Below, one piece after another: positions 4,588-50,263 of a stretch of DNA of 64,000 nucleotides (positions are counted from its first letter, which is position 1; each line of letters opens with the position of its first letter). The stretch covers positions 1 to 64,000 of the forward strand of contig PKUK01000001.1 of NCBI GenBank assembly GCA_002869535.1, read 5' to 3'. A program made the position numbers and the translations under genes. The stretch is from Arcobacter sp. GTDB taxonomy: Bacteria; Campylobacterota; Campylobacteria; Campylobacterales; Arcobacteraceae. The notes under the pieces are model-generated. The model was not told the DNA's origin, searched no databases, and worked only from the letters and a program-made list of their open reading frames with translations.

Positions 4588-5296
4588 TCTTATGTATCAT
4601 CATGTCAACAGTGACAGATGCAGTAATAACATAGAAGTTTTTGAAAAACATATGCAGTACATTGCTTCTCATTTTCAAACCACCTTTCCTACAAAAAAAG
4701 AACTCAAAGGAAAATACGCTTGCTTAGTTTTTGATGATGCGTATGCGGATTTTTATTATTTAACTTTTCCTATTTTAAAAAAGTACAACATTAAAGCTTT
4801 ATTGGCTGTGCCCACGAAGTACATTTTGGATGTATGTAGCCAAACACCTGAGGTACGAATGTCCTTTGAACATAATGATGAGTTTAAAAACTATGAAAAA
4901 GGTACATTTTGTACTTTTAAAGAAATGAAAGAGATGATTGAGAGTGGTTTGGTGCAAATCGCGTCCCATTCACATACCCATACGAATCTTTTAGAAGAGG
5001 ATGTAAATATAAAAGAGGAGTTAATACTTTCTCAACAAATTTTAGAAGAGAAACTCAGCATCAAAGTAGAGAGTTTTGTATTTCCTTTTGGAAAATACAA
5101 TGATGCCATCGCAACAGAGACACTCAATTATTATACATATGCTTTTAGAATTGGCAATGCTATTCATAAAGATTTTTCAGGAATAAAAGGTATCAACTAT
5201 CGTGTTGATGCTGATGGTTTAAGCACTGCTGATGAAATCTTTACATTCAAAAAGCAATTGGGTTATAAGTTCAAAGCTTTTATCAAATCATTTTAG
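4571..5296 (+). CDS. Polysaccharide deacetylase family protein (NodB fold)
   Basis: 241 residues. 'MYHHV' at the N-terminus, 'LVFDDAYADF' (the general-base and metal Asp pair) and 'ASHSHTHTNL' (the His-x3-His-type metal ligands) identify a carbohydrate esterase 4/NodB deacetylase. No signal peptide is seen, so it may act on a cytoplasmic lipid-linked intermediate. It starts with TTG at 4571, inside the end of the kinase gene, and other TTG/ATG codons a few positions on (4577, 4580, 4592) are possible. Its position within a core-glycan operon suggests N- or O-deacetylation of a core sugar. Confidence 0.8.
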   Translation: MKLLINLMYHHVNSDRCSNNIEVFEKHMQYIASHFQTTFPTKKELKGKYACLVFDDAYADFYYLTFPILKKYNIKALLAVPTKYILDVCSQTPEVRMSFEHNDEFKNYEKGTFCTFKEMKEMIESGLVQIASHSHTHTNLLEEDVNIKEELILSQQILEEKLSIKVESFVFPFGKYNDAIATETLNYYTYAFRIGNAIHKDFSGIKGINYRVDADGLSTADEIFTFKKQLGYKFKAFIKSF

Positions 5297-5303
5297 GATA
5301 GTT

Positions 5304-6053
5304 ATGAATATAAGTGCCGTAGTATTAGCAAAAAACAACGAAAATACCATACGAAGAACATTAAAGAGCCTAAAAGGTTTCAGTGATGTGGTTGTCTATG
5401 ACAATGGTTCAACAGATACCACTATGAATATTGCACAAGAGTTTTCAAATGTTAACTTGATTCAAGGTGAGTTTAAAGGATTTGGATGGACTAAAAACCA
5501 TGCAGCTTCATTTGCTAAAAATGATTGGATACTCATCATTGACAGTGATGAAGTCGTGGATAAAGAACTCTTTGAAACACTGCAAAACAAAATCTTGGAT
5601 GAAAAGTGTGTCTATAAACTGAACTTTAAAGCCTTTTACAAAGAGATTCAAGTGAAGTATTGTGGTTGGAACAATCAAAAAATCAAACGCCTCTACAACA
5701 AAAAATGTACACAATACAACAGCAACGATGTGCATGAAGATATTATTACTGATGGGTTTAAGATTGAAGAGTTAAAAGGTAATGTCGAACATTACAGCTA
5801 TCACTCAATTTCACAATTTGTGATTAAAGCCGACCACTACTCAACACTTTTTGCACAAAACAATGCAGGGAAGAAAAAATCTTCTCCTGCAAAAGCTTAT
5901 TTCAATGGGTTTTATTCGTTTATACGTACCTATATATTTAAACGTGGATTTTTAGATGGCTATGTGGGATTGATCATCGCTTTTTCTCATATGGTTACAA
6001 ACTTTTATAAATACATCAAACTGTATGAAGCCAACAAAGAGTTGAAAAAATGA
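5304..6053 (+). CDS. Glycosyltransferase family 2, WaaE/KdtX-like
   Basis: 249 residues from the ATG at 5304. A longer upstream reading is possible but would begin inside the deacetylase gene, and 'aggata' at 5295-5300 marks this start. The N-terminus 'ISAVVLAKNNENTIRRTLKSL', with 'YDNGSTD', 'WTKNHAAS' and 'LIIDSDEVV', is the pattern of the WaaE/KdtX group of lipopolysaccharide inner-core glucosyltransferases. The C-terminus has amphipathic or hydrophobic stretches suggesting membrane association. The stop overlaps the next start by 4 bases (ATGA), so the genes are coupled. Assignment as a core glucosyltransferase is by family resemblance. Confidence 0.82.
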   Translation: MNISAVVLAKNNENTIRRTLKSLKGFSDVVVYDNGSTDTTMNIAQEFSNVNLIQGEFKGFGWTKNHAASFAKNDWILIIDSDEVVDKELFETLQNKILDEKCVYKLNFKAFYKEIQVKYCGWNNQKIKRLYNKKCTQYNSNDVHEDIITDGFKIEELKGNVEHYSYHSISQFVIKADHYSTLFAQNNAGKKKSSPAKAYFNGFYSFIRTYIFKRGFLDGYVGLIIAFSHMVTNFYKYIKLYEANKELKK

Positions 6054-6967
6054 ATTTACTCATAACACGACATGACAAAATAGGGGACTTTATTGTGACC
6101 TTGCCTTTATTTAAAGCCATTAAAGAGCAATACCCTCAAACTAAACTCACGTCACTTGTAAGCAAAGTCAACTTTGAATTCGCACAACATATTGAGTTTA
6201 TAGATGATGTGATTTTGTACGACAAGAATGATTTAAATACAACGTTACAAACGATAAAGTCTAAAAAGTTTGATGCCAGTATCAGTGCTTATATCGATAC
6301 TAATTTAGGAAAACTGCTTTTTAAAAGTGGCATTAAAAAAAGAGTCGCACCCGCAACAAAGATTGCTCAATTTTTTTTTAACAAACGGGTGAAACAACGA
6401 CGAAGTCGTGTAGAAAAAACAGAATGGCAATACAACCTTGATTTGGGGTTAAAACTTTTCCCTGATTTGCAAGCAACTTTTTCTAAACCACTTTTAAATA
6501 TCACTTCATCTAAAGAGAAAAAAGTGGTCTTTCACCCAGGATTTGGAGGAAGTAGTGATGGAAACTTAGCACTAGATGACTACATCACCTTAGCAAGAAC
6601 CCTTCAAAACAATGAATATCGTGCAGTGTTTACTTTTGGACCTGATGATGGAGATTCTAAAGAGTACATTCAAGCACATTTAGATTTTGATGCAGAGATT
6701 TTAGACTCTAAGATGTCGTTGTATGAATTTACCCAATTTTTAAGTTCATGTTTTCTGTTTGTCAGTACTTCAACGGGGCCCATGCATTTAGCAGGGGCAG
6801 TCAATACAAAAACGCTTTCATTTTTTGGAGACACACTTTTTGCAAGTGATAAACGCTGGGCAACAATCAGTGAAAAAGAGAACCAAAACAACTTTTTAGT
6901 TCCAGCTGATTATTCCAACGCATTGTATTTGGAAATCGAACAAAGATTAAAAGAGTTGACTTCATGA
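6050..6967 (+). CDS. Glycosyltransferase family 9 (heptosyltransferase-like)
   Basis: 305 residues. 'ITRHDKIGDFIVTLPLFKAI' is the family 9 N-terminal signature and 'STSTGPMHLAGAV' the ADP-heptose-binding region near residue 240. These GT-B enzymes add heptose to the lipopolysaccharide inner core. It is coupled to both neighbours by 4-base overlaps. It is more divergent than the waaF gene downstream, so it could be a WaaQ-type or strain-specific heptosyltransferase. Six of about nine arginines use CGN codons, which is unusual for this window. Confidence 0.85.
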   Translation: MNLLITRHDKIGDFIVTLPLFKAIKEQYPQTKLTSLVSKVNFEFAQHIEFIDDVILYDKNDLNTTLQTIKSKKFDASISAYIDTNLGKLLFKSGIKKRVAPATKIAQFFFNKRVKQRRSRVEKTEWQYNLDLGLKLFPDLQATFSKPLLNITSSKEKKVVFHPGFGGSSDGNLALDDYITLARTLQNNEYRAVFTFGPDDGDSKEYIQAHLDFDAEILDSKMSLYEFTQFLSSCFLFVSTSTGPMHLAGAVNTKTLSFFGDTLFASDKRWATISEKENQNNFLVPADYSNALYLEIEQRLKELTS

Positions 6968-41307: not shown

Positions 41308-41973
41308 ATGAAAGTTTTACTTTTAGAAGATGACCCAGCTTTAAGTGATATTTTAAATGATTATTTAAATCATAAAGGCTATGAAGTAACTTTGTGTACT
41401 CAAGGTGAAGATGCTTTAGAAAACCTAATTGAGAGTGTATATGATTTTGCAATATTAGATGTAAATACTCCAACTATGTCAGGACTTGATGTTTTAAAGC
41501 ATGTTAGAGATGATTATAAGAGTCGAACACCAATTATAATAATAACTGCATACCAAGATACAAAACATCTAAAAACTGCCTTTGAATTAGGAAGTGATGA
41601 CTATATTAAAAAGCCTTTTGATTTAGAAGAGTTAGAACAAAGAATAAATAGACTTTGCAGATACTTTTCTTTGGGGACAAGAGATGAGATAAAGATTGAT
41701 AATAGTATCTCTTTTATTCCCCATGAGTGTATAGTTTTATTGGATGAAAAAAAAGTTCATATTGCTCAAAAAGAGAGAGATATTTTAAAGTATTTTGTCA
41801 ACCATGCAAATAGGGTGATTTCTTCAGATGAGTTATTACAAAACATTTGGCAATATGATGAACAACCAACTGATGCTACTATAAGGGTTTATATAAAAAA
41901 TCTTAGAGAAATACTAGGAAAAGAAAAAATAGAGACCATAAGGGGAGTGGGGTACAAGTTTGAACAAAAATGA
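41308..41973 (+). CDS. OmpR-family response regulator (system 1)
   Basis: 221 residues. Receiver domain with the acid pocket 'EDD' (7-9), phospho-acceptor D51 in 'FAILDVNTP' and 'KKPFD' lysine; then an OmpR-type winged helix ending 'TIRGVGYKFEQ'. The kinase gene begins at a TTG inside the last codons (14-base overlap), so the pair is translationally coupled. It is paralogous to the regulator at 47274. Target genes are unknown. Confidence 0.92.
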   Translation: MKVLLLEDDPALSDILNDYLNHKGYEVTLCTQGEDALENLIESVYDFAILDVNTPTMSGLDVLKHVRDDYKSRTPIIIITAYQDTKHLKTAFELGSDDYIKKPFDLEELEQRINRLCRYFSLGTRDEIKIDNSISFIPHECIVLLDEKKVHIAQKERDILKYFVNHANRVISSDELLQNIWQYDEQPTDATIRVYIKNLREILGKEKIETIRGVGYKFEQK

Positions 41974-43132
41974 AAAAAAAGCCCTATATAGTTTTCTTTT
42001 TATTTATATAGGTTCAACAGTTTTAATTCTTTCTATTTTATTATTATCTTACTACCAAAAAGAGACTGATATGGTGGAACGTCAGTGCTCAATTGAGATG
42101 ATAAGTGCAGCAAATAAAATAAAAGCAGATATACTTAATGCAGAAATGGAAAATAAAACTTTTGTACCCAAAGAGTTAAAAAACAAAAATCTAAAATATG
42201 GACTTTTTGATAAAGATGGAAATCTCATCTACTCAAAACTTGAAAACAGCAGTATAGACTTAAATACTGAAGTATCTCATAACTCAACTCATTCTTTTCA
42301 TGTATCACAATTAGAAAAACAACACCATGAAAAAATCAAAATCAAATATATAGTAATAGAGACAAATCAAGCAATTAGTGAGATAAAAAAACTAAAGATT
42401 TATATTATATTAATTCTTTTTTTAAGTACCATTTTTATTGGTTTTATTGGATATTTACTTGCAAAGCTTTTATTAAAGCCTGTAAGAGAAAAAGTAGAGC
42501 ATATGGATAAGTTTATAAAAGACTCTGCACATGAATTAAATACTCCAATTGCAGTTTTGATGACTTCTACATCAACATTAAAACAAGGAAGAAACCCTGA
42601 GAAAATGTTGAACTATATAGTTAGTAGTGCAAAACAAATTTCACAGCTATATAATGATATGCACTATAGTGCTTTTAGTAAACAAGATACTTTTTTAGAT
42701 GTTAATATAGATTTTAATGAATTGATTAATGAGAGTGTTGAGTTTTTTCAAGATATTGCTATTACAAAAGGTATTAAGATTTATGAAGAGTTAGATGAGT
42801 GTGATATCTTTATGGATAAAACAAAAACACAAAAAATAGTAAATAATCTTATTTCAAATGCCATTAAATATTCTAACAAAGATTCTAAGATAATTGTAAG
42901 AGTAAAGAAAGGTGTTTTTTCTGTTCAAGATTTTGGAATAGGTATTGAAGAAAAAGACCAAAAAGAGATTTTTAAAAGATATAAAAGAGGCAAAAATTTT
43001 GAAGGTGGTTTTGGTATTGGCTTAGATATTGTAAGTGAAGTATGTAAAGAGTACAACTTAAAGCTATGGCTAGAATCACATGTGGACAAAGGTTCTATAT
43101 TTTACATAGATTTTGAGTCAGTTTTAAAATAG
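41960..43132 (+). CDS. Sensor histidine kinase (system 1)
   Basis: 390 residues from TTG 41960. Two membrane helices (about 9-31 and 146-170) enclose a periplasmic sensor of about 110 residues. The H box is 'SAHELNTPIAV' with H191, then N, G1 and G2 boxes ('NNLISNAIKYS', 'VQDFGIGIE', 'GGFGIGLDIV'). No HAMP domain is clear. The 'H-E-L-N-T-P' H box and the start inside the regulator gene are shared with the kinase at 47905 ('H-D-L-N-T-P'), which points to a duplication. Confidence 0.9.
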   Translation: MNKNEKKALYSFLFIYIGSTVLILSILLLSYYQKETDMVERQCSIEMISAANKIKADILNAEMENKTFVPKELKNKNLKYGLFDKDGNLIYSKLENSSIDLNTEVSHNSTHSFHVSQLEKQHHEKIKIKYIVIETNQAISEIKKLKIYIILILFLSTIFIGFIGYLLAKLLLKPVREKVEHMDKFIKDSAHELNTPIAVLMTSTSTLKQGRNPEKMLNYIVSSAKQISQLYNDMHYSAFSKQDTFLDVNIDFNELINESVEFFQDIAITKGIKIYEELDECDIFMDKTKTQKIVNNLISNAIKYSNKDSKIIVRVKKGVFSVQDFGIGIEEKDQKEIFKRYKRGKNFEGGFGIGLDIVSEVCKEYNLKLWLESHVDKGSIFYIDFESVLK

Positions 43133-44716
43133 TTATTGCTTTAAATCTGGGATTCTTATTTCAAACTCTAAACCCAAATAGCTATCTTTTTGGAAATAAA
43201 AGTATGCATTTTTAGCTGTTATTGTACCTTTTAAATGTCTTCCAACTATTTCTTGACACATATATAGTCCAATACCAGTTCCTAGTTTTTGCTTTTTTGT
43301 TGTGAAGTATGGTTCAAAGATTCTTTCCAATATATCTTCTGGTGCACCATTTCCAGAGTCTAAGATTTTTAATACTAATAAATCATTTTCTTTATAAGCT
43401 TGTATACCTATATATCTATCCTCTGTATTTTTAAGCTCTGAGAGTACATCAATTGAGTTATTTAGAATATTTATCAATACTTGTATTAGCTCATTTTCAT
43501 AATTTGTAATTATTATAGGAACAATCTCTTTTTTAATTTTAATATTTTCATTCTCTACTCTTGAATCTATTAATTTAAGTGCTAAATTTAATACAGTATC
43601 TATTGAAAAACTATTTTTTTCTTTAACTGTAGCAAAATAATTTCTAAAATCATCAATGGTATTTGAAAGATATTGGGCATTTAGATTAATGCTTTCAAAT
43701 GCTTCGTTTTCTATATTTGATGTATCAATTCCATATTTCTTTTTCATCAAAATACCTGTAGCATAGGTTGATATGATAGATAAAGGTTGTCTCAACTGAT
43801 GGGCAATATTTTCTAACATTTCTCCCATCATGGCTTGTTTTGTTTTATGCATTAGGATTTGTTCTTTTTCTATTTTCTCTTCTTCAAATCTTTTTTTCTG
43901 TAAATAATTGTTATGATTTTCAACAGCAATTCCAGTGATATTTGCAATATCTTCTATAAGTTTTATATCAAATTCGCTAGGTTCTTTTGGAGTATTATAA
44001 TAAATAGCAAAAGAGCCTAATACTTCATTTGAAGAGGAGAAAAATGGTTGAGACCAACATGCTTGAAGGTTAACTTTTGCAGCTAAGTTTTTTGCATATT
44101 TCCAGTTCTCGTGGGTTTGTATATCTTTGACAATAACCCTTTCTTTTAGAAAAACTGCTGCACCACAAGAACCAACATTTGCTCCTATTTACATACCATT
44201 TAGTTTTTCATTGTAAAACTCAGGCAAAGATGGAGCTGCACCTTTTATTAGTTTTTGTTTGGATTCATCTAAAAGTAAAATAGAACAAATCATATTGTTA
44301 TTTCTTTTTTCAACAGATTTAATAATCTCATCTAGAATAAATTCAATTGGTTTAGCTGTGGCAATATACTTTAATAGATTTTTATGGTCATCATATAAAA
44401 CTGAATATTTTTTAAACTCAGTAATATTTCTTCGTATGATTTTTATATAGGGCTCTTTGTTAATTTTTTTTACTAGAACTCTTTTTATTTTGAAATAATA
44501 TATCTCTTTGTTTATTTCAATTGTTTCATCTAAAATCTGTTTTGAATTATTTGATAAGTTGAGTTGTTTGAAAAAATCACTCTCTTTTTTTCCTAAAACA
44601 TCTTCAATATTTTTATTGATAAACTTTAGAAAAGCAGAGTTTGCCTTAATTATATTATTGTCTAAATCGACTTTTATAGTTAAGTTTTTAAATAAATTAA
44701 ATGTGCTTTTCCCCAC
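43133..44716 (-). pseudogene. PAS-GAF-histidine kinase interrupted by in-frame TAA
   Basis: A 528-codon frame from GTG 44716 broken only by TAA at 44189-44191 (minus strand). Order: PAS-like (about 1-115), GAF (about 120-280), coiled coil, HisKA with 'IAHQLRQPLS', and HATPase with 'NILNNSID', 'LDSGNGAPE' and 'TGIGLYMC'. The stop falls in the GAF domain just before 'GANVGSCGAAVFL', where relatives have a Glu or Lys. Both halves remain in one frame. A truncated kinase core could still start at 43852, so partial function is possible. Confidence 0.85.
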
Positions 44717-46070: not shown

Positions 46071-46313
46071 TTATCTTTCTAGAACTTTAGCTAATTGTAG
46101 TTTGTTACTAACAATCTCTTGTGCGGCAGGCAGCTCTTTTTTATCCATATTTGTAAGTTTCGTGTCAAGCTCTTTTAATAACTCTGCTCTTATTTTCACA
46201 TCAGCAGTATTATTGATTTTATAAACTAATTGACTAACATCAGATACTCCTGATGCAAACAAACTTGTTGTTCCTACAATTGCTAAGATAGCTAATTTTT
46301 TACCTAATTTCAT
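46071..46313 (-). CDS. Small exported helical protein A of a three-member family
   Basis: 80 residues from the ATG at 46313, decided by a strong ribosome binding site AAGGAGAT; a longer frame to 46394 has no such signal. Signal peptide about 1-20 ('..TTSLFASG'), then a 60-residue helical domain. It is clearly related to the proteins at 48987 and, more distantly, 47020: all share 'L-V/L-x-K-(I/V)-N' and '(L)LK-x-L-D-x-KL' at the same spacing. Periplasmic; function unknown. Confidence 0.8.
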   Translation of the reverse strand: MKLGKKLAILAIVGTTSLFASGVSDVSQLVYKINNTADVKIRAELLKELDTKLTNMDKKELPAAQEIVSNKLQLAKVLER

Positions 46314-46444
46314 TTTTATATCTCCTTGATTTTTTATGTGTGGAAGTATATAAATAAAGTGTAAGTTAAATATTAGTTCAAATTTTTTAATCAAAGATTC
46401 TTTATTGGCAAAAAAATTGTCTTGATGTTTAATGAATATTCTAT

Positions 46445-46450
46445 TATAAT
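46445..46450 (+). promoter_or_regulatory. Candidate -10 box upstream of the lipoprotein operon
   Basis: TATAAT in the 287-base gap between divergent small-protein and lipoprotein genes. The gap also has a second TATAAT-like box near 46500 and a TTCCC/GGGAA inverted repeat (about 46519-46544). It is the main regulatory space of the signalling region, but no single promoter can be fixed by eye. Confidence 0.35.
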
Positions 46451-46600
46451 ACAGGCCTTAATAGTGGAGTTTGTAGTGATATTTAGGTTTTATATTCCAT
46501 TATAATTATTAAGTATTTTCCCATATAAATCTAATAGTAATAGGGAATAAATAAAAAATACAAATATGAACGCTGTTTTATTGTAAAAGGAAAAATATAG

Positions 46601-47020
46601 ATGTATAAACTATTGCAAGTATGTTTTATAACAGCTCTTTCAATAACACTAATTGGGTGTAGCCAAAAAGATTTTTCTATAGGTGAAAAAAAGAGTGAGT
46701 CTTCAAAAGAGATTATTAGAGATAAAAATTGTAATAAATATAAAAAAGCTATGGATTATGCCTCTACATATATACAAGAAGAGTTTGAAAAAGGCTACTT
46801 TTCAAAAAATGATACAGTAGGTGCAAAAGCACAGCTTTTTTTAATAGAGAGTAAATCTTCAACAATTTTTGCAAAAAATATAAATGCTGCAAAAGAGTCT
46901 TATGATGCTAATTACAACTTATCAAAAAAAGGAAATTGCAGTCTAAAAAGCTTTTATATACATCCTTTCGAAAAGTTAAAAAATAGTATAGAGACTTTAG
47001 AAAAACAAAAGGTTAAATAG
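46601..47020 (+). CDS. Putative lipoprotein, first gene of the second two-component operon
   Basis: 139 residues with a lipobox 'LIGCS' (Cys20), so it is a predicted lipoprotein. The mature part is helical and has two more cysteines, at about 44 and 113, that could form a disulfide. Ribosome binding site 'aaaaggaaaaa'. Its TAG overlaps the next gene's GTG by one base, and the regulator and kinase follow with 4- and 14-base overlaps, so it is part of the two-component operon. Not recognised as a known family. Confidence 0.75.
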   Translation: MYKLLQVCFITALSITLIGCSQKDFSIGEKKSESSKEIIRDKNCNKYKKAMDYASTYIQEEFEKGYFSKNDTVGAKAQLFLIESKSSTIFAKNINAAKESYDANYNLSKKGNCSLKSFYIHPFEKLKNSIETLEKQKVK

Positions 47021-47277
47021 TGAGATTAAAAAGTTTAATAATTATATTTATCTTTTCTATGACTTTGCAATTATTTGCTAAAGAAAAAGTAGTGGAAACT
47101 CTTCTAGAAAAAGTTAATCAAGCTTCAACACCCCAAGAAAAAAAGCAATTAATAGAAAAATTAAAAGTGGCCTTAGCAAAAAAAAATAAAAAAGCTAGAG
47201 AAGAATCAAATGCCATAATAAAAGCAAAACAGAAAGTGCCAATTAAACTTTTTGATGATAAAGTACTTGATAAATGA
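47020..47277 (+). CDS. Small exported helical protein C of the three-member family
   Basis: 85 residues starting with GTG in TAGTG. Signal peptide about 1-20 ('..LQLFAKE'), then a Lys/Glu-rich helix pair. Residues 28-72 align without gaps with residues 29-73 of the protein at 46071 (same 'LL-x-K-V-N', 'LIEKL' and 'A-I-I-x-x-K' positions), although with many lysines. It overlaps the regulator start by 4 bases, so its amount is tied to that of the two-component system. Function unknown; a periplasmic partner of the kinase is a reasonable guess. Confidence 0.7.
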   Translation: MRLKSLIIIFIFSMTLQLFAKEKVVETLLEKVNQASTPQEKKQLIEKLKVALAKKNKKAREESNAIIKAKQKVPIKLFDDKVLDK

Positions 47278-47918
47278 ATAAAAAAATAAAAATCTTACTT
47301 TTAGAAGATGATACAATTTTAGCCCAAACTATGGTGCAAATTTTAGAACAAGAAAATTATGATGTTACATTAGTATCTGATGGAGAAGAGGTTATTGAGT
47401 ATACATATGATAATAAATATGATCTTTATTTATTTGATATAAATGTACCTTTGCTTGATGGAATGGAGACCTTAAAGCTTTTGCGTCAAGCAGATGATAA
47501 TACACCTACTTTTTTCATAACAGCACTAATTGACATAAAATCTACCCTAAAGGGGTTTGACTATGGTTGTGATGATTATATAAAAAAGCCTTTTGATTTA
47601 GATGAGTTGTTAGCTCGTATTCAAGCAACTTTAAAACGGAAAAATCCTGTTCTTAAATACAAAAATATTACATTTGATTTACTAGAAAGTAGGGTATTAA
47701 AAGATGATATTGAAGTGCCCTTGGGAAGTGTAGAAAAAGAAGTCTTTTCACTTCTTATAAGAAATATTGGTATGACTGTAAACAAATCTACTTTTTTTGA
47801 TTATATGAATAAGCCTAGTGAACCAGCACTTCGTGTTTTAATTAGTAAATTAAAAAAGCTTTTAGATTTAGATATTTCAAATATAAAAGGTGTAGGATAC
47901 AAACTTGAAAAACTATGA
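47274..47918 (+). CDS. OmpR-family response regulator (system 2)
   Basis: 214 residues. Receiver with 'LEDD', phospho-acceptor D55 in 'YLFDINVP' and 'KKPFD', then a winged helix that ends 'NIKGVGYKLEKL'. The winged-helix part is shorter than in system 1 and lacks a typical recognition arginine-rich strand. Overlaps the small exported gene by 4 bases and the kinase by 14 bases. Paralogous to the regulator at 41308. Confidence 0.9.
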   Translation: MNKKIKILLLEDDTILAQTMVQILEQENYDVTLVSDGEEVIEYTYDNKYDLYLFDINVPLLDGMETLKLLRQADDNTPTFFITALIDIKSTLKGFDYGCDDYIKKPFDLDELLARIQATLKRKNPVLKYKNITFDLLESRVLKDDIEVPLGSVEKEVFSLLIRNIGMTVNKSTFFDYMNKPSEPALRVLISKLKKLLDLDISNIKGVGYKLEKL

Positions 47919-48939
47919 AAAAAAGTCTTTAATTACTACTATTTCTCTTTTTTTTATTCCTTTATTTATACTTGCAAGTATAGTTTTATATATGTATCAC
48001 AGTGATAAAGTTAAAGATATAGAACAAAATATTTTATATCAAATGAAAGATTATACTTTTGATTTTAAAGGTGATACGTTTAGCCTTGATATTGTTGAGG
48101 ATAATAAAGAAAAACAACTTTTTAAAATCTATCATTGCAAAGAGGGACTTTGCGCTTATTTTCAAATACCCTCAACAGGTCCATATCTTTTAAAAGTAAT
48201 TTATGACAAAAAGAAGTATGAAAAAGTTTATTATGATTTTCTAGTAGATATTTTTAAGTTTTCAGTTGTAATCTTCTTTTTTCTACTTTTTATCTCTGTT
48301 GGTTTTGCCCTATATTCTCTGCGACCAATGAAAGAAGCACTTCATCTTTTAGAAGATTTTCTAAAAGATTTAATTCATGATTTAAATACCCCTGCAACTT
48401 CTATTTTGTTAAATTCAAAATTATTAAAAAGACGTGGAGATTTTGAAGAGACTGAAAGAATAGAGTTAAGTGCTAAAACTATATCTTCTCTTTATAAAAA
48501 TCTAGAACTAATAACTCCTAAACAGATATCAAAAACTGAAGAAGTATCTCTTAGTAAATTGGTAGATGAAAAGATTGAAATTTTACAAAAGTTATATCCT
48601 AAAATCAAATTTAATAAAAATATGCAAAATGTTTTCATAAAAAGCAATAAAAATGCAATGGAACGTATTATCGATAATCTTTTAACAAATGCTTGTAAAT
48701 ATAATAAAAAAAATGGTGAAGTAAATATTAGTGCAAGTGAACAAAAACTTATTATAGAAGATAGTGGTATTGGTATAAAAAATGTTAAAAAAGTATTTCA
48801 AAGATATTATAAAGAGAATGAGACCGGACTTGGTATTGGCATGAGTATTGTAAAACAGCTTTGTGATATTTTGGATATAAATATTAGTATAACTAGTGTG
48901 ATTGATAAGGGTACAAAGATAGAGCTTACTTTTAAATAG
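47905..48939 (+). CDS. Sensor histidine kinase (system 2)
   Basis: 344 residues from TTG 47905. Membrane helices about 9-31 and 113-137 enclose a periplasmic sensor of about 80 residues with two cysteines (78 and 83, 'HCKEGLC'), which might form a redox-sensitive disulfide. The H box 'LIHDLNTPATS' has H158; N and G boxes follow ('DNLLTNACKYN', 'EDSGIGIK', 'TGLGIGMSIV'). It has no HAMP domain. The start lies within 'GYK-LE' of the regulator gene, exactly as in system 1. Confidence 0.9.
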   Translation: MKNYEKKSLITTISLFFIPLFILASIVLYMYHSDKVKDIEQNILYQMKDYTFDFKGDTFSLDIVEDNKEKQLFKIYHCKEGLCAYFQIPSTGPYLLKVIYDKKKYEKVYYDFLVDIFKFSVVIFFFLLFISVGFALYSLRPMKEALHLLEDFLKDLIHDLNTPATSILLNSKLLKRRGDFEETERIELSAKTISSLYKNLELITPKQISKTEEVSLSKLVDEKIEILQKLYPKIKFNKNMQNVFIKSNKNAMERIIDNLLTNACKYNKKNGEVNISASEQKLIIEDSGIGIKNVKKVFQRYYKENETGLGIGMSIVKQLCDILDINISITSVIDKGTKIELTFK

Positions 48940-48944
48940 CTTGA

Positions 48945-48983
48945 GTAAAAATCACCTTTGAAAAATTCAAAGATGATTTTTAC
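48945..48983. terminator. Long bidirectional terminator hairpin
   Basis: An 18-bp stem with one mismatch (48945-48962 with 48966-48983) and a 3-base loop lies between the convergent kinase gene and small exported gene. Its outer part is A-rich on the left and T-rich on the right (TTTTTAC), which suits termination in both directions. Confidence 0.85.
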
Positions 48984-48986
48984 TAC

Positions 48987-49223
48987 TTAAAGAACTTTAG
49001 ATATTTTTAGTTTAGTATTAATAATTTGCTGAGCGGTAATAAGGTCTTCTTGCCCCATTGATGAAAGCTTTGCATCAAGTTTCTTCAATAGTTGGCTTCT
49101 TTCATTTAAATTAGTAGCTGTATTGATTTTATCTACTAATACATTTACATCATTAATTCCAGCAGCGAATAATCCCGTTGCCCCTAATATTGCAAAAATT
49201 GCTATTTGTTTACCTAACTTCAT
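48987..49223 (-). CDS. Small exported helical protein B of the three-member family
   Basis: 78 residues, signal peptide about 1-20 ('..GLFAAG'). Residues 1-78 align with the protein at 46071 over the whole length with many identities (MKLGK, AI-AI-G, LFA-G, DV, LV-KIN, LLK-LD-KL, AQ-I). A good ribosome binding site AAAGGAG stands before the ATG. It lies on the other side of the two-component operon from protein A, on the same strand as A. Periplasmic, function unknown. Confidence 0.8.
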   Translation of the reverse strand: MKLGKQIAIFAILGATGLFAAGINDVNVLVDKINTATNLNERSQLLKKLDAKLSSMGQEDLITAQQIINTKLKISKVL

Positions 49224-49285
49224 ATTTCACTCCTTTTTTTAAAGATGTGAAAGTATATGAAGAAAGTGTTAGTTAAGTGTAAGTT

Positions 49286-50263
49286 TTATCTTGAAAGGCT
49301 AATTCCAAAGCTTATTCGATTTATTTCTTCATTATAATCAATTAAACTATCCCCATAACCACTTGATACTTGAACATATCCAAAAGTATTTTTTGAGTTT
49401 AGTAAAGGGAAAGTCCAGCTAAGTTCTGCAAAACCTTTATTTGAATCATCAAATTTTAGATTATTTCTAAGCAGTAATTTAAAAGTGTGTTTTTTATATG
49501 GTAAATCAAAAGTTAAATCCCCATATCCAAGATAGTCTTCTATATCTGGATTATCATCATTTTGTCCATCTGGTATTCTATACCAAATTCTTGGGCTGAA
49601 AAATAGACTTGAAAATTGAAAATAACTTTGGGCATATAATCGGTTCCATGATCTAGATTTTGCTTGGGCTTGGCCATTTGATTCATGTAAAAATCCAAAC
49701 TTTAAGGCTTTTAAAGAGGTTTTGTTTTTTTTACCATATGGAATCATAACAAAAACTTCAGGCTTATAATTTGTCTCTCTAAAAGGTGATGATTCAGAAT
49801 ATAGTTGCCACCAAGACTTTTGAGTATATGCGAAGTTTATACTCTCTTTTAAACCAAAAAAGTTATAAGAAATAGGCTTTTTAACACTTAGTTGAAATAC
49901 TGTTTCAAAATCTTTTCTTCCATCATCAAGTTTTGAACTATATGAAAAAGGTAGAAGATAGTTTTCATTGTATGGATATAGGTCAAAAGAAGAGGCTAAT
50001 ATTTGAGATAAAGTGTTTCTTGTCTCTTTATCTTCAATTGTATCTAAAACCTTTTTTGTAGCTTTTACTTCTGCTTCTTTGTCTTCATCTATAAAAGTAA
50101 TTTTATCATTAGTTTCAGACTTTGCTATTTGTTTATATATAAGCATAGCCTCTTTATAGTTGTGTTCATCTTCAAATTTTTTAGCTTTTGCATAGAGTTC
50201 ATCCAAATTTTCATTTGCAAATATTGCTGAGATTAAAAAAATAGATAGTAGAAGTTGTTTCAT
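49286..50263 (-). CDS. pldA: Outer-membrane phospholipase A
   Basis: 325 residues with a signal peptide (about 1-16). A helical, TPR-like N-terminal region (about 18-90) precedes the OMPLA barrel. The catalytic triad is clear in 'FLHESNGQAQAKSRSWNRLY': H193, S195 and N207 have the same spacing as H142, S144 and N156 of E. coli OMPLA. 'FGISLSR' ends the barrel with a C-terminal aromatic/hydrophobic signal. It removes acyl chains from misplaced outer-leaflet phospholipid. It lies 62 bases upstream of small protein B on the same strand. Confidence 0.9.
   Translation of the reverse strand: MKQLLLSIFLISAIFANENLDELYAKAKKFEDEHNYKEAMLIYKQIAKSETNDKITFIDEDKEAEVKATKKVLDTIEDKETRNTLSQILASSFDLYPYNENYLLPFSYSSKLDDGRKDFETVFQLSVKKPISYNFFGLKESINFAYTQKSWWQLYSESSPFRETNYKPEVFVMIPYGKKNKTSLKALKFGFLHESNGQAQAKSRSWNRLYAQSYFQFSSLFFSPRIWYRIPDGQNDDNPDIEDYLGYGDLTFDLPYKKHTFKLLLRNNLKFDDSNKGFAELSWTFPLLNSKNTFGYVQVSSGYGDSLIDYNEEINRISFGISLSR

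Follow-up and report, generated by a model that had tools for sequence, protein, structure and literature searches.

A conserved two-component module of Arcobacteraceae with small exported helical proteins as its predicted main output

Three genes for related small exported proteins lie around and within a two-component operon of Arcobacter sp., raising the question of whether they form one envelope-sensing module with its kinase. We examined the locus in a window of 64,000 nucleotides, the whole stretch of DNA that was analyzed. The operon consists of a lipoprotein gene (46601–47020, + strand; 139 aa), the gene for protein C (47020–47277, +; 85 aa, GTG start), a response regulator (RR) gene (47274–47918, +) and a sensor histidine kinase (HK) gene (47905–48939, +). 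On the opposite strand, one on each side, are the genes for protein A (46071–46313, −; 80 aa) and protein B (48987–49223, −; 78 aa), the latter convergent with the kinase gene and preceded directly upstream by pldA (49286–50263, −). Every gene was found where a sequence-only reading of this DNA had placed it, and the overlaps of 1, 4 and 14 bases that it had described among the lipoprotein, C, RR and HK genes were borne out. The explanation we prefer, with a probability of roughly 0.55, is that the locus encodes a dedicated two-component system that senses the envelope and would have small exported helical proteins as its main output, with C and the lipoprotein acting on the kinase.

Protein A comprises a signal peptide and a helical mature part of ~60 aa, and B and C are its paralogues. 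A and B share 51% identity, and C is ~30% identical to each of them; a profile-profile comparison of A/B with C made without the signal peptides gave a match at E=1e-10. The proposal that A and B are close kin and C is diverged therefore stands, and the homology survives removal of the signal peptides. By sequence, all three are exported helical proteins of common descent. Neither they nor their distant small-protein relatives were assigned to a family in Pfam and NCBIfam scans, and a sequence search of the PDB with the small-protein profile yielded nothing convincing (best E=0.011). The structure model of B (pLDDT 79) has a signal helix that continues into the first helix, followed by two further helices, and Foldseek found nothing similar to it at E≤0.001.

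In a tree of 85 proteins, A/B formed one group (support 99/93), C another (98/82) and the distant relatives a third (100/97); the alignment behind this tree has few columns, and the three main splits are nonetheless well supported. Because A/B and C each form one clade, the split into an operon paralogue and a separately controlled paralogue appears to be older than these genera. The simplest reading of the tree is that one ancient duplication gave the operon-borne C and the A/B type, which is controlled by the promoter box described below, and that the A/B pair of this genus arose by a later duplication.

The two-component proteins were classified by Pfam and NCBIfam models. Pfam returned Response_reg at 92 bits for the RR, and HATPase_c at 61 bits and HisKA at 27.0 bits (barely above the cut-off of 26.9) for the HK. 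Trans_reg_C matched the RR only at E=0.0013, below its cut-off, so that the DNA-binding half is the weakest point of the class assignment; OmpR-family NCBIfam models aligned with the RR along its whole length. The catalytic residues of both proteins were kept in 22 out of 22 orthologues, in which phospho-Asp55 and the other receiver residues of the RR and the HDLNTP H-box of the HK were invariant. Two transmembrane segments of the HK, at ~8–33 and ~110–140, enclose a short sensor region. Judged by these features, the pair is classed as an OmpR-type two-component system.

The lipoprotein has an invariant GC (Cys20) lipobox, and its structure model (pLDDT 87) predicts a four-helix bundle after Cys20, with pLDDT mostly above 95 over residues 41–130. 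Neither a Pfam nor an NCBIfam family was found for it in scans, Foldseek gave no match to the model at E≤0.001, and VIA-align reached a Z of only ~6, with generic helical bundles.

To see how the arrangement is kept, we turned to related genomes. A profile of A and B matched 23 of the 104 genomes of the family, and 22 of these carry the module; the match in the 23rd genome (G079), which has no module, was weak and lay in an unrelated long frame. Since most of the 104 genomes lack the module, we regard it as an accessory system. The lipoprotein, C, RR and HK genes formed one block in all 22 mapped loci. An A/B gene stood at the kinase end, pointing back toward the kinase gene and usually adjoining it, in 21 out of 22 loci, one gene intervening in G058; in the remaining genome (G035), it is the lipoprotein end that carries the corresponding small exported gene. 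The number of A/B copies at the module ranged from one to three. In almost every matched genome, a C-type relative was encoded ~2 kb from the A/B match on the opposite strand, and this co-occurrence of the two types, genome after genome, places the grouping of A, B and C beyond chance. Sulfurospirillum arcachonense (L067) and a second Sulfurospirillum genome (L078) have the same block, and a rearranged version was found in a Campylobacterales metagenome-assembled genome (MAG; L076).

Further afield, a profile seeded solely from Arcobacteraceae C proteins provided a clean test of linkage. It was searched in 397 genomes of the phylum. With Arcobacteraceae and the genus that carries the full module set aside, 12 matches at E≤0.001 were left, nine of them within 2 kb of a relative of the kinase; the chance of a random match within 3.5 kb of such a kinase is ~0.003. 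The other three were in frames of more than 340 aa and look like chance matches. Thus, the small proteins remain beside this kinase type and are not scattered at random across genomes, the pattern that would have spoken against the sequence-only reading by its own account. A broad profile (A7) had 95 of its 118 matches no more than 3.5 kb from a kinase, and such a neighbor was present at 78 of 101 kinases; these figures are supporting only and not independent, because A7 was partly seeded from kinase neighborhoods. A few matching contigs (L118, L128) are labeled Aquificota; these are MAGs, and binning errors are possible.

In the other Campylobacterota, the small protein was usually encoded on the RR/HK strand together with a beta-barrel-like protein of ~265 aa bearing a thrombospondin-type-3 (TSP3) motif (examples of this outer-membrane-barrel-like protein are L163:1966–2787 and L164:1815–2624). 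The barrel profile matched 56 of 93 kinase stretches, some of which represent the same place twice. At several loci of Sulfurospirillum, the place of the barrel-like protein was taken by a TSP3 lipoprotein of 85 aa. Because these TSP3 proteins accompany the small protein elsewhere, the helical lipoprotein is the Arcobacteraceae-type partner. The small protein of the distant relatives is probably co-transcribed with the kinase, a placement that alone is no proof of kinase contact.

Alignment of the regions upstream of A and B revealed AACTwAyAyTTAACTwACACTT followed by TATACT. The box of A (46345–46376, −) reads CTAATATTTAA-CTTACACT, and that of B (49252–49283, −) reads CTTACACTTAA-CTAACACT, each a direct repeat followed after 7 nt by TATACT. 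Their consensus is an 11-bp direct repeat, AACTwACACTT-AACTwACACTt, that ends exactly 7 nt before a TATAmT −10 element, in place of a −35. Two direct repeats of 11 bp are the usual geometry for OmpR-type regulators. The box of A sits in the gap that A shares with the lipoprotein gene, ~225 bp upstream of the latter; on inspection, most genomes showed no separate box for the lipoprotein-C-RR-HK operon.

With 0–1 mismatches, the box preceded 33 out of 34 A/B-type genes, always with the same 7-nt spacing to the −10, and the one gene lacking it is the inner gene of a tandem array. The 33 include an unlinked A/B copy far from the module (L054) and genes of S. arcachonense, L078 and L076. When the genome of the window was searched with the box alone, exact occurrences were found only before A and B; nine further matches had two mismatches each, and we take these as chance because a reversed control pattern gave 12 matches. 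Searched with box plus −10, this genome had only the A and B sites at 0–2 mismatches. We extended the box plus −10 scan, at up to three mismatches, to 24 genomes with the module and four without. All but four of the sites with 0–1 mismatches in the module-bearing genomes preceded A/B-type genes; two of the four exceptions had no ORF behind them (G032, G033) and two had an ORF of ~100 aa (G261, G418). Among the module-free genomes, three had no site and the fourth had just two, with three mismatches each. The scan pattern was derived from A/B promoters, so that finding it before A/B genes is to some extent a foregone result. This does not apply to the fixed spacing, to the virtual lack of the box elsewhere in each genome or to the boxes at L054, in Sulfurospirillum and at L076. 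Thus, A and B look like outputs of the adjacent regulator, as had been proposed, because both carry a promoter box that is conserved and, within any one genome, hardly occurs anywhere else. The predicted regulon defined by the box, A/B and no more than one or two other loci, is a minimum estimate, since weaker or different regulator sites would escape the scan.

These observations strongly indicate that the regulator would activate A and B through the predicted box. Once phosphorylated, the protein encoded at 47274 would bind the paired 11-bp direct repeats that stand shortly before the −10 elements of A and B and switch on both genes, and this regulatory wiring is well supported at the level of sequence. 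The steps on the sensor side are more conditional. C and the envelope lipoprotein may control how active the kinase is by acting on its short periplasmic part, a role we infer because both are encoded in the kinase operon and because, throughout the phylum, C relatives are found next to relatives of the kinase. Accessory proteins of this kind are an established way of working: CpxP binds and restrains the kinase CpxA (PMC4160245), and the lipoprotein QseG activates QseE via its periplasmic loop (PMC6075780). As paralogues, C and A/B probably share a binding target, be it a client or a surface. The kinase might be turned on when a client or a damage product in the envelope draws off C or engages the lipoprotein; A and B would then be made, exported and bound to the same client, and surplus A/B or freed C would turn the kinase off again. 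A and B might in this way be output and feedback together. As nearly the whole box-defined regulon, they would have to do useful envelope work and not feedback alone.

That last point is also an argument for another explanation, in which A and B are plain effectors that protect the envelope, as small periplasmic chaperones or as binding proteins, and are induced by the two-component system with no contact between any of the small proteins and the kinase, C being a constitutive copy. The common core of C and A/B fits such an explanation as well. However, C and its relatives elsewhere keep to the operon or vicinity of one kinase type, which is beyond what a free effector would need, and we consider this explanation rather unlikely. 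Linkage of a small exported protein with a kinase and a regulator that appears to induce it also recalls peptide quorum-sensing cassettes; A and B would then be signals that the cell exports and its kinase detects, closing a positive loop. Such autoinduction is improbable here: no leader-processing or dedicated export gene adjoins the locus, the sequences are conserved and not hypervariable between species, and a Sec-type signal peptide would keep the product in the periplasm.

The least probable of the alternatives, and to our minds a very faint one, is a wider membrane-damage response in which PldA is a further output, as the sequence-only reading had suggested. Its basis is that pldA immediately precedes B in this genome and in four related ones, which makes 5 of the 22 mapped loci (G000, G032, G033, G058 and G065). 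In the other 17 loci, however, pldA is away from the module, and no regulator box precedes pldA itself. Moreover, the box of B is inside the short gap after pldA, so that B has its own promoter. We therefore rejected pldA as a part of the module; it is an incidental neighbor.

The module described here, proposed to be a dedicated sensor system with paralogous exported proteins, resembles CpxRA/CpxP/Spy of Escherichia coli: each combines an OmpR-type two-component system with periplasmic proteins that are small, helical and paralogous to one another. The gene for CpxP lies beside cpxRA, and CpxP is 28% identical to its paralogue Spy; the division of work between CpxP, a kinase modulator, and Spy, a chaperone output, is comparable to that proposed for C and A/B. 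By contrast, the mature part of A/B/C is ~60 aa, against ~140 aa in CpxP/Spy, C is inside the kinase operon, and the box-defined regulon, with A/B and no more than one or two other loci, differs from the broad envelope regulon of Cpx. The LTXXQ family was not matched in Pfam scans of A, B, C and 50 relatives, and membership of the CpxP/Spy family was rejected, as hhalign gave a probability of ~1% or less against CpxP or CpxP plus Spy. The earlier comparison with CpxP thus holds as an analogy and fails as a sequence relation. A lipoprotein encoded with the kinase and regulator is shared with E. coli QseE-QseG-QseF, although the regulator here is OmpR-type and not sigma-54 dependent and an additional small paralogue family is present. 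Membership of the QseG family was likewise rejected (hhalign of 25 lipoproteins against QseG aligned the signal region only, with a probability of 1.4%).

Within the phylum, the OmpR-type system DccRS of Campylobacter jejuni is similar in having a small regulon, a few genes whose products are putative periplasmic or membrane proteins (PMC7118207, PMC9449129). Kinase matches in the small genomes of two families taken as Helicobacter- and Campylobacter-type (f2, f3) covered the kinase domain only, and a kinase near groEL, the synteny of DccS, was not found in the four genomes tried. DUF1104 proteins (PF06518) are also small exported helical proteins of Campylobacterota. A, B and C had no match to PF06518 at E≤1, nor was it among the families matched by the 50 relatives at E≤0.01. 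A profile-profile comparison without signal peptides gave a probability of 74% (E=3e-5), with column-shuffled controls at ~0.1%; a distant relationship of DUF1104 proteins to A/B/C is possible, and the match is only suggestive.

We found no paper describing the module in a search that covered few subscription journals. As far as could be checked, it is real, conserved and not previously described, and its protein family is unnamed. An exported protein family thereby gains a testable role and an uncharacterized regulator a predicted binding site, within an unusually small circuit from sensor to output, whose output is paralogous to the protein on the sensor side. The module also touches the open general question of how small periplasmic accessory proteins tune kinases beyond the enterobacterial Cpx model, and the phylum-wide tie to one kinase subfamily suggests an envelope surveillance of Campylobacterota with parts unrelated in sequence to CpxP and QseG. 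A broader reading, which we offer tentatively and with the odds leaning against it, is an undescribed class of multi-part envelope sensors across Campylobacterota (with the few contigs labeled Aquificota). Each such sensor would join a kinase, always of the same subfamily, and its regulator to a small helical protein that is exported; the envelope partner would differ between lineages (a TSP3/beta-barrel protein, an 85-aa TSP3 lipoprotein or a helical lipoprotein). In Arcobacteraceae, the small protein would have been duplicated into an operon copy reporting to the kinase and box-controlled copies forming nearly the whole output.

Several minor observations were made along the way. In the sister genomes G032 and G033, box plus −10 stood before an ORF-free stretch (L286:2578–2680, L287:2543–2650) that is convergent with a different response-regulator gene and had no Rfam match; it is possibly a regulated small or antisense RNA. 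Two Sulfurospirillum genomes had an exact box before an ORF of ~100 aa with no obvious signal peptide (L288 ~2590, +; L289 ~3653, −). Elsewhere in the genome of the window (L236, G000:C9:246000–255000, at 4661–6709), a DUF1104 exported protein is encoded directly before the regulator of a second two-component system, an order that recurs in several other Arcobacteraceae genomes (L237–L242) and in L247 and L253. In the window itself, a separate regulator-kinase pair at 41308–43132 stays near A and a NUDIX gene in relatives (L032, L034, L038, L039). Beside it, at 43133–44716 (−), a kinase-domain ORF (43133–43852) and a PAS-like ORF (44189–44716), on the same strand and separated by ~340 bases, look like two halves of a single, possibly disrupted, sensor kinase gene.
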